Virus record (IMG/VR): IMGVR_UViG_3300021197_002025
Span: 1-25,618 of that record
Source of the DNA: a virus
Length of the DNA stretch: 25,618 bases
Strand: one strand, 5' to 3'
Under the pieces are notes generated by a model. It worked only from the letters and a program-made list of their open reading frames with translations, made no database searches and was not told the origin of the DNA. The position numbers and the translations under genes are program-made. Of this stretch, positions 4,029 to 12,283 are shown one piece after another; the stretch's first letter is position 1; the number at the start of each line of letters is the position of its first letter.

Positions 4029-4958
4029 TTAGTATTCAAATGGAGGTGTTCCGTAATCTTTTTGTTGAATACCATACCAAGTGTTTCCAACCTGATAGTA
4101 CCACCAACCATGTTTGTTGTCTTCTATAATTTTAAACTTACCTTTTGGTAATGGTGAATCTTTTTTAGAAGCTCTTGCGATGTATTTAAGAACAGGAACA
4201 CCATCGTCAAATGTTTTATCTGTTTTTCTAGCCTTTACAGATTTTCTATTATCTGTGTTTGTTGCCATATGAAGTTTAAATGCTGGGTCATCACTAAGAA
4301 AAGACTTAAATACATCTTCGTTTATTCCTTTTTTTGAAACAGATTCATTTTGCATATTATATACTACATCTTCTTCAAAGTCATCGGCAGTAAATTTTCC
4401 GTAGTCTTTAAAAAAGCTTTTAGCATTTCTTTTTGCTATTGACTCTAATGATTTAACATAATCTTTAGCGTATCTAGTTGGAACCCCTCCTGACTTTATA
4501 GCCTGTTTTAATCCTTTGTCTAATTTTTGCATAATTTCTCCATATGGAGAAGTTGTTTTGCCTTCTTTATTTATAGACCTAGCAGCTTTTACTGCTTTTT
4601 TGTGTGCTTTACTTCCTTTTTTAGCTGGCTTTTCGCCTCTTTTTCTTTTGGCATGTATATTTGCCCAAAGGCCTTGACTTTTTTCAGTTAAATCATCTAT
4701 TGGTTCACTAGTAACCGCTTTATTAAAATCTTTTTCTGCTTGCTCTACTTTCTTGTGAAGGCTTATTAAAGATTTCTTAAAGGTTTCTTTCTTTTTAGGA
4801 TCCTTTTCAGCAACAAACTTTTTTCTAAGTTCTTGCTGCTTTAATTGTATTGATTGAAGAGCTTCGACAGCCTTTTGAAACCTTTTTGTTATTGAAGCTT
4901 CAGATAAAACAGATTCTACTTCCTCGCTTAGTATTTTTTTAAATTGTTTTATATTCAT
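4029..4958 (-). CDS. Lysine-rich protein of unknown function with GLWANIHAKRKRGE motif
   Basis: I do not recognise a function for this 309-aa protein. It starts MNIKQFKKILSEEVESVLSE, an amphipathic helix. The 801-aa protein and the kinase also begin with short helical leaders. A charged coiled-coil-like region covers residues 24-85. The basic motif GLWANIHAKRKRGEKPAKKG lies at 96-115; I recall similar LWxNIHxKRxR motifs in other phage virion-associated proteins. A lysine-rich middle follows, and the last ~55 residues are aromatic (WWYYQVGNTWYG at 285-296), suggesting a small SH3-like beta domain. The many basic residues suggest nucleic-acid or capsid-core association, which is inference. It is preceded by the ATATTTATTGTA element and is followed at 16 nt by the holin-like gene. 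Confidence 0.8.
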   Translation of the reverse strand: MNIKQFKKILSEEVESVLSEASITKRFQKAVEALQSIQLKQQELRKKFVAEKDPKKKETFKKSLISLHKKVEQAEKDFNKAVTSEPIDDLTEKSQGLWANIHAKRKRGEKPAKKGSKAHKKAVKAARSINKEGKTTSPYGEIMQKLDKGLKQAIKSGGVPTRYAKDYVKSLESIAKRNAKSFFKDYGKFTADDFEEDVVYNMQNESVSKKGINEDVFKSFLSDDPAFKLHMATNTDNRKSVKARKTDKTFDDGVPVLKYIARASKKDSPLPKGKFKIIEDNKHGWWYYQVGNTWYGIQQKDYGTPPFEY

Positions 4959-5610: not shown

Positions 5611-8016
5611 TTAGAAAGTCATCATACCAGCAATTTGATTTACTGGGGCAAATGCTCCTGTTAATTTATATGTGTTTCCTTTATATATAAAAACTAATCC
5701 TTCACTTGGAATTATAGTTTTAAATCCTCCAATAGCATTAATTTTTTGTAATTGTTGAGTCATTCTATTTAATTTCTTAAGGTCTCCACCTTTTCTAACA
5801 TCACTTATTGCTTTTGCTACCTGTTTTCTAACATTTTGAATTGCTTTATCTGGATTAGCTGCTAAGAATCCTTCTACGTTTTTAAGTACTTCAGCTCCTA
5901 ATTCAAAAAATAATGTTTCAAAAGGAAGCATATTATCTTTTACTTGGTTTGCATGTTTTAACTTATCAAATTCTTTTGCTTTTTTAAGTAAGTCTTCACT
6001 AGGTATAGTTTTTTTATCTAATCTAAATGACTTATCAAAAAATGCCCAACGTTTAACCAATCCAATCTTAATTGTATTATCAACACCTTTCATTTTTTTA
6101 TCAACAAAGTTTTCCCACCAGGCTTGGTGATATTCGGCAAAGGTTGATGTGTCTTTCATGTTAAACTTTTTCATAAGTTTTTTAAGTTTTCCAGTGAAAT
6201 AAGGTTTTTTTGCTGAATAGTCTTGGTGAGGTTTCATTTTAAGAATCTTAGGTCCAATTATAGAAAAGTTTTTTTGAACACTTTGATTTATTTGTGTAAT
6301 CATTCCTGCAAGAATTCTTGCTCCGTCTTGAACTGACCCTATGGCTTTACCATCTTTATATTGTAATACATTATGAAACTGTAGGTATGGTGCATCATAC
6401 GTAATCACATTAGCAGAGGCAGGAAACATTATTTCCATATTTACCCAGTTATTACCGCTATTAAATATTTTTTCTTGTTGTTTGGCATTAAGACCTCCAA
6501 TTGCTTTTGCTAGATCTTTCATTGCAAAAGTAAAAGCTTTTTCTATATTACCTCTACCTTTAAATTTTGCAGCAACGGCTTTATAATCCATTCCACCCTT
6601 TTTTAAGTCTCCAGTATTTCTAGCAGCTAACATTTTACCATTCCAGCTAATAAATAAGTTTTGACCATCTGTTTTTTCTGTTGCTGCTTTTTCTAAATCT
6701 AGATTTCCTTGAAGAGCTAGGTCAATAATATTCTTAAAATCTCCAAATGTTAGTCCTCTATCATCGAATGGATGTGACATGTGACCGTATGCTCCACCCT
6801 CAGTTAGCATTATTTGGTTAGCTAGCCATTCTCCTAAACTTTCATCTATAGAGTGTATTGATGTTGGTTTAACAACCGTTGTTTTTTGGTTTGATGGTTT
6901 TAGATTTTTTTGTTTGTCCAATGTTTTTTGTAGTTTTTTCATTTCTTTATCTTGCTTTATCGGCTCATTTACACTTTGGACTGACGAGATTTCAGCGCCT
7001 AAAAAGTTTAAAAATTCATATCCAGCAGATTGAGCTATATATTTTGACCAACTACTCCATCTAGTATAAGCGTCTCTTCCTTTTTTATCTTGAAGGTAGT
7101 TTGTTCCTGCTACTACGTTTTTTTCTCCCGTGGCTGGAATTCCAACTGGAAAATATGAAACTGCAGCGGTTGGTCCTCCAGTAAAATCTTTTTTAAATGC
7201 TGTATCATGTTGGAAAAATTCTTCTTCTCCAACTATATAATTTAAGACTTCCATTCCCATTTTTTCAGCTAAGTCTTTATTATCTGTCCGATATGATTTT
7301 TGAGTACCATAAAAATATCTTGGTCCATCGTCAACATCAGCTGATCCAGGAGCCGTTTTTGAAGCTTCACTTATTATATCCAATATATTGCTATTTTGGC
7401 AAAAGTCTTCAATTGTTTCGTTTAATTTTTCTAGCTTATTTACTATAAAGTCATAATTTTTTGTGTGGCCGAATATCCCTCTAAAAACCTTTAACTTTTC
7501 AGTCTTGCTTAATTCTTTATCTCCTAAAGCCTTTCTAATTGCAGTGCCACTCATTTCTCCATATCCTGGTACATTCATTGAAACATGAGGGGCAAGTATG
7601 AGATATGCTCCATCTTTATATCCAACCTCAGCTTTGCCTTTCCAATCTTGAAAAAACTTTCCTTTAAGTCTTCCTGCGTCTTTTGAACCTACCATAAATA
7701 CGGCAGCAGTAGTTTTAGGGTCGTATTTTTTTAATATTTCTTCTGCTTTATATGGGTTTTTTACTTTTACAACATTTTTTATTCCATGGGAATTTATTAT
7801 TTTCTTTTTTTCAACAAATGAAAATGGTGATTTTGGTAAATTTACTTTATCGCTTGTTCCAACATAAGAGTCTTTAAACTTTGACTGGAGCCACTTAAAT
7901 GTTTTTGCGTGGTGAGCTCCCATAGGTTGAAATCTTCCAGGATATATTGCAACAATAGTTTTAATATTGGTTTCCTCAAGTAAAATTTTATCTACTAAAT
8001 AGTTTCCTAAACTCAT
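5611..8016 (-). CDS. Fusion of cytidylyltransferase-like and nucleic-acid-ligase-like domains
   Basis: This 801-aa protein has at least three parts. Residues ~18-200 form a cytidylyltransferase/NMNAT-like Rossmann domain: GRFQPMGAHH (27-36) stands where the family has GRFQPxHxGH, and MSGTAIR (155-161) matches its (I/M)SxTxxR motif. The first histidine of HxGH is replaced, so catalysis is uncertain. Residues ~225-345 are an unrecognised middle domain, followed by a charged linker. Residues ~400-801 carry the order of covalent nucleotidyltransferase (ligase) motifs: KTDG (448-451, motif I lysine K448), RNTGD (466-470), NMEIMF (526-531, motif III glutamate E528), EGLVFIYK (772-779, motif IV) and K784 (motif V). 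This suggests an RNA/DNA ligase-like fold. The start codon overlaps the kinase stop as ATGA, and a Shine-Dalgarno-like AGGAAA lies inside the kinase gene, so the two are translationally coupled. Possible roles are nucleic-acid end repair or nucleotide/NAD chemistry. Confidence 0.8.
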   Translation of the reverse strand: MSLGNYLVDKILLEETNIKTIVAIYPGRFQPMGAHHAKTFKWLQSKFKDSYVGTSDKVNLPKSPFSFVEKKKIINSHGIKNVVKVKNPYKAEEILKKYDPKTTAAVFMVGSKDAGRLKGKFFQDWKGKAEVGYKDGAYLILAPHVSMNVPGYGEMSGTAIRKALGDKELSKTEKLKVFRGIFGHTKNYDFIVNKLEKLNETIEDFCQNSNILDIISEASKTAPGSADVDDGPRYFYGTQKSYRTDNKDLAEKMGMEVLNYIVGEEEFFQHDTAFKKDFTGGPTAAVSYFPVGIPATGEKNVVAGTNYLQDKKGRDAYTRWSSWSKYIAQSAGYEFLNFLGAEISSVQSVNEPIKQDKEMKKLQKTLDKQKNLKPSNQKTTVVKPTSIHSIDESLGEWLANQIMLTEGGAYGHMSHPFDDRGLTFGDFKNIIDLALQGNLDLEKAATEKTDGQNLFISWNGKMLAARNTGDLKKGGMDYKAVAAKFKGRGNIEKAFTFAMKDLAKAIGGLNAKQQEKIFNSGNNWVNMEIMFPASANVITYDAPYLQFHNVLQYKDGKAIGSVQDGARILAGMITQINQSVQKNFSIIGPKILKMKPHQDYSAKKPYFTGKLKKLMKKFNMKDTSTFAEYHQAWWENFVDKKMKGVDNTIKIGLVKRWAFFDKSFRLDKKTIPSEDLLKKAKEFDKLKHANQVKDNMLPFETLFFELGAEVLKNVEGFLAANPDKAIQNVRKQVAKAISDVRKGGDLKKLNRMTQQLQKINAIGGFKTIIPSEGLVFIYKGNTYKLTGAFAPVNQIAGMMTF

Positions 8017-8717
8017 CTTGATTTCCTAAGCTCTATTTCTTTTTTAATCCACTGTTTTGCTATATGATTCTGTACTGGTCTTGATACAAATTCTCTAGCC
8101 TTTGACTTAACAACGTCTGCAAAATCTTTATATTCTGAATTGTCGACTACCAACATATTACTAGAACCAAATAAACTTTGAAATTTACCTAAATTATTTT
8201 GTACCGCTTGCCAAGAAGATTTTACTAATTCACTTGGTAACTTTCTTTCTCTTTGTTGATTTCTTTCAAGTGCTACATCAAGGTCAGTATTTACAAAAAT
8301 CATAAAACAATCATAACCTACTTCTTGTAATCGTTTTTTCTGTTTTGCTATGTTTGGATAGTTTTTACCGGTTCCGTCTATTAGTAAACCTAGTCTTCCG
8401 TTTATATAGTTTTTTAAAGCTGCATCTCTAACTTTTTTACTTTTTTGCCTTAGTTCCATTGCTTGAGAATATTCTGACGGTTTTAATTTTGCTATGTCTT
8501 GGCTTAATCCTTTCATTTGTAAAAAAGTTTCAAAATACTTATCACTGTTAACCGACTTTAATCCCTGTGCAGAAACAAAAGGCATTTTTTCCGGCATACC
8601 AAATAGTGTGGATGCTGCATATGATTTTCCTGAACCTGGGCCTCCTGCCGTAAACACCGCTTTAAATATACCTGGGTCATATACGCCTTCGTTTAATATG
8701 TCTGCTAGTTTAATCAT
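8013..8717 (-). CDS. P-loop kinase (polynucleotide-kinase / zeta-toxin-like)
   Basis: This is a 234-aa NTP-binding protein. A perfect Walker A, GGPGSGKS, sits at 25-32 after a hydrophobic strand. VNSDKYFE (56-63) provides an acidic residue (D59) placed like the substrate-binding aspartate of zeta-type kinases. LLIDGTGKN (111-119) is the second strand/Walker B-like region, and ERNQQRERKLP (151-161) gives the arginine-rich lid seen in polynucleotide and small-molecule kinases. The fold call is firm but the phosphate acceptor is not known. It overlaps the 801-aa nucleotidyltransferase/ligase-like gene by 4 nt, so a kinase and a ligase-like enzyme are made together. Its ATG has no Shine-Dalgarno: the 12-mer ends two bases before it. 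No antitoxin-like partner is adjacent, arguing against a toxin role. Confidence 0.85.
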   Translation of the reverse strand: MIKLADILNEGVYDPGIFKAVFTAGGPGSGKSYAASTLFGMPEKMPFVSAQGLKSVNSDKYFETFLQMKGLSQDIAKLKPSEYSQAMELRQKSKKVRDAALKNYINGRLGLLIDGTGKNYPNIAKQKKRLQEVGYDCFMIFVNTDLDVALERNQQRERKLPSELVKSSWQAVQNNLGKFQSLFGSSNMLVVDNSEYKDFADVVKSKAREFVSRPVQNHIAKQWIKKEIELRKSR

Positions 8718-11704: not shown

Positions 11705-12283
11705 TTATTTTCTTTTTGAAAGTACTTTTACAACATTGTTGATAACGTTTCCTGCTTCATTTATAGGATTAGTACTAACATATTCTGCTACTATTTTATT
11801 TAGCTTATTTTTCTTTACAGAGAGATTGTTTAAGTTTATATCTTCCTTTATAAGCAATTTTAATATATTTATTATGTGTTGCTTTTCTGATAAGGTTACT
11901 GCTTCTTCCTTTATTCCGCTAACAACAACGTTTGGAGTAGTAGATTCTTGTATAGTTTCTTTTTTAGATTGATTTTGACTAACTACCTCAACAGTTACTT
12001 TTTTTGATTGTTGAACTTCAAAGTCGCTTTGCCATGGAATAAAATAAGTATCTTCGGCTATTACCTCTAATTTAATACTTCCCTTAGAAGATTCATCTAT
12101 TAACCCTCTCAATTTTTTTATTGGCACTACACATTTTCCATTAGAATCAACTTTACCTTTAAAAAGTAAATTTAATTCTGGAGTTTCAACTATTAGCCTG
12201 GCTGATGTTTTTGCCATACTTGCTCCTGAAATATTAATATCGCACTCAAATAGTTCCGTTTTATCAGTAAATAATTTATACAT
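11705..12283 (-). CDS. Putative virion structural protein (FECDINISGAS family)
   Basis: This is a 192-aa protein. Residues 1-91 (starting MYKLFTDKTELFECDINISG, then KTSARLIVETPELNLLFKGK, ending with a W-containing strand around 85) form a compact beta domain. I recall similar sequences from conserved virion proteins of T4-like marine phages. Residues 92-192 are polar, with a helical C-terminal half rich in K, I, N and V. The start overlaps the stop of the 105-aa gene by 8 nt (ATGTATAA), so the two are translationally coupled. The 732-aa fibre follows after 11 nt. A structural or assembly role is likely from context, but no enzymatic motif is visible and no function is assigned. Confidence 0.75.
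   Translation of the reverse strand: MYKLFTDKTELFECDINISGASMAKTSARLIVETPELNLLFKGKVDSNGKCVVPIKKLRGLIDESSKGSIKLEVIAEDTYFIPWQSDFEVQQSKKVTVEVVSQNQSKKETIQESTTPNVVVSGIKEEAVTLSEKQHIINILKLLIKEDINLNNLSVKKNKLNKIVAEYVSTNPINEAGNVINNVVKVLSKRK

Follow-up and report, generated by a model that had tools for sequence, protein, structure and literature searches.

The gene at positions 5611–8016 of a 25.6-kb viral DNA fragment (25,618 nucleotides, IMG/VR record IMGVR_UViG_3300021197_002025; hereafter the window) is best read as encoding a capsid-targeted polyprotein that would be cut by a prohead protease into free enzymes and injected with the DNA, a reading to which we give a probability of about 0.7. The open reading frame is intact, encodes 801 residues and runs on the minus strand from 8016 to 5611, at the place and length given by an earlier note on this sequence. 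That note described a three-part fusion of a cytidylyltransferase-like and a KxDG ligase-like domain, situated among virion genes. Both named domains stand, and the terminase and portal genes are indeed nearby, in keeping with packaging, but a third domain between them (about residues 218–355) had escaped notice, as had the [I/L]xE sites at the domain junctions. The features are as follows.

5611–8016, minus strand: gene of the 801-residue polyprotein, comprising a candidate capsid-targeting sequence (CTS), a nucleotidyltransferase (domain A), domain B and an RNA-ligase-like domain (domain C); defined by the open reading frame and its homologues
7975–8016, minus strand: residues 1–14, MSLGNYLVDKILLE, a capsid-targeting-like propeptide ending in [I/L]xE (E14 in 66/69 homologues)
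7423–7965, minus strand: domain A (residues 18–198), predicted HxGH-superfamily nucleotidyltransferase, NMNAT/NadM-PPAT-like (Foldseek, phrog_395)
7909–7920, minus strand: GAHH at the HxGH site (residues 33–36), H36 invariant in the homologue alignment
7534–7551, minus strand: SGTAIR motif (residues 156–161), with S156, G157, T158 and R161 invariant
7366–7419, minus strand: A/B linker with two conserved [I/L]xE sites, E200 and E217, otherwise variable in the homologue alignment
6952–7365, minus strand: domain B (about residues 218–355), uncharacterised, with a DDGP signature and no Pfam match
6799–6951, minus strand: hypervariable B/C linker with LTE406 immediately before GGAYGHM (E406 in 83/84; junction test)
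5614–6798, minus strand: domain C (residues 407–801), predicted Rnl1-like covalent nucleotidyltransferase with a helical insertion (AlphaFold, Foldseek)
6664–6675, minus strand: motif I, KTDG (K448), with K, D and G invariant in 96/96
6427–6441, minus strand: motif III, NMEIM (E528), E528 invariant in 96/96
5722–6249, minus strand: helical insertion between motifs III and IV (about residues 590–765), seen as helices in the AlphaFold model
5689–5703, minus strand: motif IV, EGLVF (E772), conserved in the domain C alignment
5665–5667, minus strand: motif V lysine K784 (YKLTG; the second motif V lysine is Thr), from the domain C alignment
8013–8717, minus strand: P-loop kinase (zeta/PNK-like; Pfam Zeta_toxin, 1.2e-10), overlapping the polyprotein gene by 4 nt
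8688–8717, minus strand: kinase residues 1–10, MIKLADILNE, CTS-like, with Glu-Gly kept in homologues
4899–4958, minus strand: CTS-like N-terminus, MNIKQFKKILSEEVESVLSE followed by AS, of a 309-residue ORF at 4029–4958, recognised from its sequence

Domain organisation

Searches with the whole protein (Pfam, PHROGs, NCBIfam, PADLOC and PDB sequences) returned weak matches to domain A only, and no tRNA or Rfam RNA was found in the window. As judged from its relatives, domains A, B and C are separable units: domain C occurs by itself in LR756500, and Microcystis phage Mel-JY01 has domains A and C with domain B absent. LR756508 carries an extra ParB-like stretch at the N-terminus, and larger relatives of up to about 1600 residues have added Nudix and weakly matched Pol-beta-like modules, so that kinase, nucleotidyltransferase, Nudix and ligase domains are shuffled in varied combinations. 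The kinase is encoded upstream of the polyprotein in the window and is fused into it in some relatives; the Glu-Gly before its conserved start is kept whether it is separate or fused. Because the homologues share ancestry, the counts across them given here and below are not independent.

The nucleotidyltransferase domain

Foldseek matched domain A to PPAT, NMNAT and NadM structures, which bears out the cytidylyltransferase-like domain of the earlier note. The full-length AlphaFold model, from a first run with 39 sequences, was used for this domain only, because motifs I, IV and V of domain C fell below pLDDT 50. In profile searches, phrog_395, annotated as 'cytidyltransferase', matched domain A at 2.3e-5 and the NCBIfam NMNAT match was below cut-off. 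A Rossmann-like fold, as indicated by the PPAT and NadM matches, and the SGTxIR motif of the HxGH superfamily are present, but in place of the (H/T)xGH motif the protein has GAHH. This substitution and the retained SGTAIR had both been read correctly from the sequence; GAHH is one of several variants among relatives at this site (GxHH in 65, HSGH in 8, HRGH and TLGH in 1 each). The assignment of domain A as an HxGH-type adenylyltransferase fold, NMNAT/PPAT-like according to the predicted structure, holds up.

The RNA-ligase-like domain

K448, D450, G451, E528, E772, G773 and K784 are ordered and unchanged in 84/84 family members and likewise invariant in 96/96 non-redundant C domains, and the motifs are therefore not a product of chance. 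Motifs I, III, IV and V thus have the correct order claimed for them; the III–IV distance is 244 residues (528 to 772) and not the earlier estimate of about 190, and the insertion proposed on that basis is present in the model as a long helical segment. Modelled by itself, domain C gave a pLDDT of 88 and a pTM of 0.83. Foldseek against the PDB placed T4 Rnl1 first, then a Palaeococcus RNA ligase and T4 Rnl2, as expected for the KxDG ligase-like domain that had been suspected, and the ten best matches are all RNA ligases (probability 0.66–0.92, E 0.009–0.03, with a global TM of only about 0.25). Among the viral predicted structures of BFVD, relatives were followed by annotated RNA ligases. The model has an adenylation fold, whose absence would have counted against the ligase assignment; since motif V lies only 17 residues from the C-terminus, domain C has no OB domain. 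T4 Rnl1 is not known to have one either.

At the sequence level, Pfam RNA_ligase matched weakly in 37/96 members, and hhalign of domain C with T4 Rnl1 was not significant (E 0.24), with motifs I and III in register (NMEIM against NFEFV for motif III). Alignment with T4 DNA ligase gp30 by hhalign was not significant, and a profile search of PDB sequences with domain C returned unrelated chains only. The E-values behind the ligase relationship are modest. Domain C has what defines the covalent nucleotidyltransferase/RNA ligase superfamily, namely KxDG, the motif III Glu, the motif IV Glu-Gly, the motif V Lys and the adenylation fold; the K-x-K of motif V and the C-terminal Rnl1 domain, which characterise the T4 Rnl1 family proper, are absent. 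It resembles T4 RNA ligase 1 and other phage and archaeal RNA ligases in motif order, in the short IV–V spacing and in being matched structurally to them above all else, and differs from them in that its helical domain sits between motifs III and IV instead of at the C-terminus, and in the Thr that replaces the second motif V Lys. Because of this Thr, and of the Gly that replaces the first HxGH His in domain A, enzyme activity is not certain.

Paride protein P0002 was considered as a family member and set aside, its motif layout being the same but its similarity borderline. A hypothetical protein of Pseudomonas phage Paride (L156:2408-3748) has a ligase-like KxDG...VEGYVIR...VKIVD layout with a long III–IV insert and no Pfam match.

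Protease-type sites at the domain junctions

In the 39-member alignment, [I/L]xE is found in at least half of the sequences solely at E14, E200, E217 and E406, that is, at the N-terminus, twice in the A/B linker and at the residue directly preceding domain C; at the E14 position the motif occurs in 89% of the sequences. Apart from these sites, the linkers rank with the most variable stretches of the alignment, and one homologue (L083) lacks the E406 site. The junctions were assessed in 222 ORF segments, with distinct 25-residue windows preceding each domain. [I/L]xE occurs within 25 residues upstream of the kinase, nucleotidyltransferase, B and ligase domains in 76, 85, 99 and 89% of these, compared with 30, 39, 33 and 57% after shuffling and 5% in windows of the same size inside the ligase domain. 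The scarcity of [I/L]xE within domains gives weak support, because [VM]xE and [ST]xE are low in domain A too.

Cleavage by T4 gp21 follows L/I-X-E, and the initial ten residues of IPIII are enough for targeting to the capsid (PMC9026906). As a sequence pattern, the [I/L]-x-E junction motif is the gp21 prohead-protease motif. In the T4 record, IPII and IPIII begin MKTYQEFIAE followed by A, and gp23 has an FLTE site also followed by A; the start of the kinase, MIKLADILNE followed by G, resembles that of IPIII. The gp23-type major capsid proteins (MCPs) of related viruses carry a conserved NQA(K/R)(Q/E)LI(S/D/K)E near residue 60, followed by Ala, Ser or Asn. A gp21-family protease (PF03420) is encoded in 12/15 related records; no such gene lies within the window, which is a fragment. 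The occurrence of [I/L]xE where domains meet, calibrated against capsid proteins of the viruses themselves, offers a simple rule for finding packaged effectors.

An internal start at the ligase junction

In an M-type subset of homologues, Met replaces the Glu before GGAYGHM, and the junction is not cleavable at that position; the gene in the window has the Glu form. The codons before the in-frame ATG are constrained in the M-type segments: GAG is present in 44/44 and (AAG or AGG)-GAG in 43/44, against a background in the same ORFs of 25% AAG among Lys codons and 24% GAG among Glu codons, and the Leu codons that follow vary synonymously. The M-type junction thus reads as a Shine-Dalgarno sequence placed at the usual distance upstream of an in-frame ATG; translation from there would give Met-GGAYGHM. 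Removal of Met is expected where Gly follows, and the N-terminus of the M-type product would then be that of the protease product. Parsimony on the tree gives at least 12 changes between the E and M states, a count that recombination could inflate. Internal starts are also annotated within genes 17 and 21 of the T4 record.

Proposed packaging and processing

We propose that the gene product is a precursor from which internal head proteins of a T4-type marine phage are made. Its first 14 or so residues would act as a capsid-targeting sequence that brings the precursor into the prohead core, where a gp21-type prohead protease would cleave behind the [I/L]-x-E sites ending at 14, 200/217 and 406, freeing the nucleotidyltransferase, domain B and the Rnl1-like ligase inside the head. 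Together with the separately targeted kinase, the freed enzymes would be ejected with the DNA and be active during the first minutes of infection. The domains, the conservation of their motifs, the junction sites, the codon constraint, and the protease family and alternative internal start of relatives are shown by the data; cleavage, packaging and injection are inferred for this virus and quite probable. The most likely task would be healing and sealing of RNA, for example of tRNA cut by a host defence nuclease. In its favour, domain C is similar to RNA ligases and the kinase to polynucleotide and tRNA kinases, among others; the task is speculative, and we hold it with somewhat less than even confidence.

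More tentatively still, an abundant marine T4-type lineage may carry a capsid RNA-repair kit of kinase, nucleotidyltransferase and ligase, made as one polyprotein that the head-maturation protease cleaves; protease sites and internal ribosome starts would then have evolved as exchangeable means of releasing the ligase at one and the same residue. If the proposal is true, head packaging of the T4 style would no longer be confined to single internal proteins but would include a modular polyprotein, and an RNA ligase and a nucleotidyltransferase would be delivered at the onset of infection, before any phage gene expression.

Comparison with known systems

As in T4 IPI–IPIII and Alt, which are CTS-directed, cleaved by gp21 and ejected, the protein begins with a short targeting-like peptide whose last residues are [I/L]xE, the propeptide expected of T4-type internal head proteins with a CTS (E14 as listed above), and relatives have a gp21-type protease and a gp23-type MCP. 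By analogy with Alt, enzymes would be delivered with the DNA. Unlike in these T4 proteins, a single precursor joins three domains, separated by additional cleavage-type sites, and the enzymes are a nucleotidyltransferase and a ligase.

Packaged multidomain effectors are already known as a concept from the polyvalent proteins, whose processing was ascribed to a built-in metallopeptidase (Iyer et al. 2017, PMC5512222). Like these, the present family consists of shuffled multidomain effector enzymes whose genes lie among those for the virion and whose packaging is predicted; in relatives, a zeta-like kinase and ParB-like and Nudix domains occur as partners. In contrast to them, a self-processing metallopeptidase was not found here, a zincin-like metallopeptidase (MPTase) domain having no match in Pfam or NCBIfam, and a prohead protease acting in trans, or an internal translation start, would take its place. 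Our literature search, with incomplete coverage, returned no description of a ligase-bearing arrangement of the prohead-protease type.

Cyanophages pair an HxGH-type nucleotidyltransferase with a KxDG ligase-like protein, although as adjacent separate genes, T4-GC190 (cytidyltransferase) and T4-GC71 (DUF6267, a KxDG...EGxV...VK protein), or, in S-PM2, as one fusion of opposite order (S-PM2d138). T4-GC190 also starts with a CTS-like peptide in S-SM1 (MKKFSAFLNE, then A), P-SSM2 (MKSFSQFLTE, then T) and S-SSM5 (MKKFSAFLTE, then A), and was detected by mass spectrometry in purified S-SM1 virions (Sullivan et al. 2010, PMC3037559); the P-HM1 protein is without such a peptide. In P-SSM2, an annotated tRNA ligase is found four genes downstream. 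DUF6267 (PF19782) resembles domain C by fold and motif layout only, with no detectable sequence relation, and hhalign of domain C with the cyanophage DUF6267 profile was not significant. The fold suggests that cyanophage DUF6267 is an enzyme of ligase type whose partner is a nucleotidyltransferase carried in the virion. DUF6267 proteins at L307:3992-5197, L310:27296-28270 and L242:3486-5261 have KxDG, EGxV and VK motifs like those of covalent nucleotidyltransferases.

Alternative explanations

The earlier note, sound in its domain assignments, pictured a single bifunctional enzyme. Such an enzyme would stay uncut in the cytoplasm, the nucleotidyltransferase making a cofactor or activating a small molecule and the ligase using the product, with LxE as the ends of linker helices. 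The fusion in S-PM2 and the adjacent genes of other cyanophages speak for it and indicate that the two domains probably work together, and the ligase-like proteins of S-PM2 and P-HM1 have no clear CTS at the N-terminus. Against it stand a Glu that is invariant within hypervariable linkers, an internal start convergent on the same residue, the same motif in capsid proteins and the ligase alone in LR756500. Because protease-type sites or an internal start part the domains, which also occur separately, we do not favour a single enzyme and regard it as quite unlikely.

The two other explanations concern the task of the products. A packaged set might restore NAD+ in the face of NADase defences, with the kinase and the NMNAT-like domain as a NadR-like pair and the ligase in a separate task; phage NadR joins NMNAT to a P-loop kinase (PMC9503650), domain A resembles NadM and NMNAT, and some relatives have a Nudix domain. 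The kinase, however, is closest to zeta, PNK and seryl-tRNA(Sec)-kinase-like families rather than nicotinamide riboside kinase, HxGH here has Gly for its first His, and the window yielded no recognisable NMN-making enzyme. We regard NAD+ restoration as possible but unlikely. Least probable is that domain C serves as an assembly factor or is a ligase with altered catalysis. The annotation of T4 rnlA is double, RNA ligase 1 and tail fiber attachment catalyst, the polyprotein gene adjoins long repeat-rich, tail-fibre-like ORFs, and motif V is without its second Lys; yet all tested site residues for covalent nucleotidyl transfer are invariant, and a structural role alone would not need them. The capsid-packaged polyprotein remains the preferred reading.

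Distribution and additional observations

The family is present in at least 580 IMG/VR contigs, widespread yet almost absent from cultured phages, among which Microcystis phage Mel-JY01 was the sole named relative found. A search of genome contigs gave only two matches, on MAG contigs of unlike taxa that may be misbinned viral contigs.

A 192-residue ORF in the window (11705–12283, minus strand) has 9 [I/L]xE sites where 2.9 are expected by shuffling; it could possibly encode a head-core protein cut at many sites, or the excess could be due to chance. In Microcystis phage Mel-JY01, a ribosomal protein S21 gene (L223:7184-7411) lies between the prohead protease and capsid genes. In the 309-residue ORF at 4029–4958, the stretch GLWANIHAKRKRGEKPAK is closely like GLYANIHAKRARGESPAK in P-HM1 PHM1_163 (T4-GC 534). 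Finally, a module of about 45 residues (for example GDTILVGKFKNKK..VKDIGKDxHGMPTINGRKATTFRI) recurs in many of the larger polyproteins, sometimes directly before a junction (L129, L130, L111, L102, L097).
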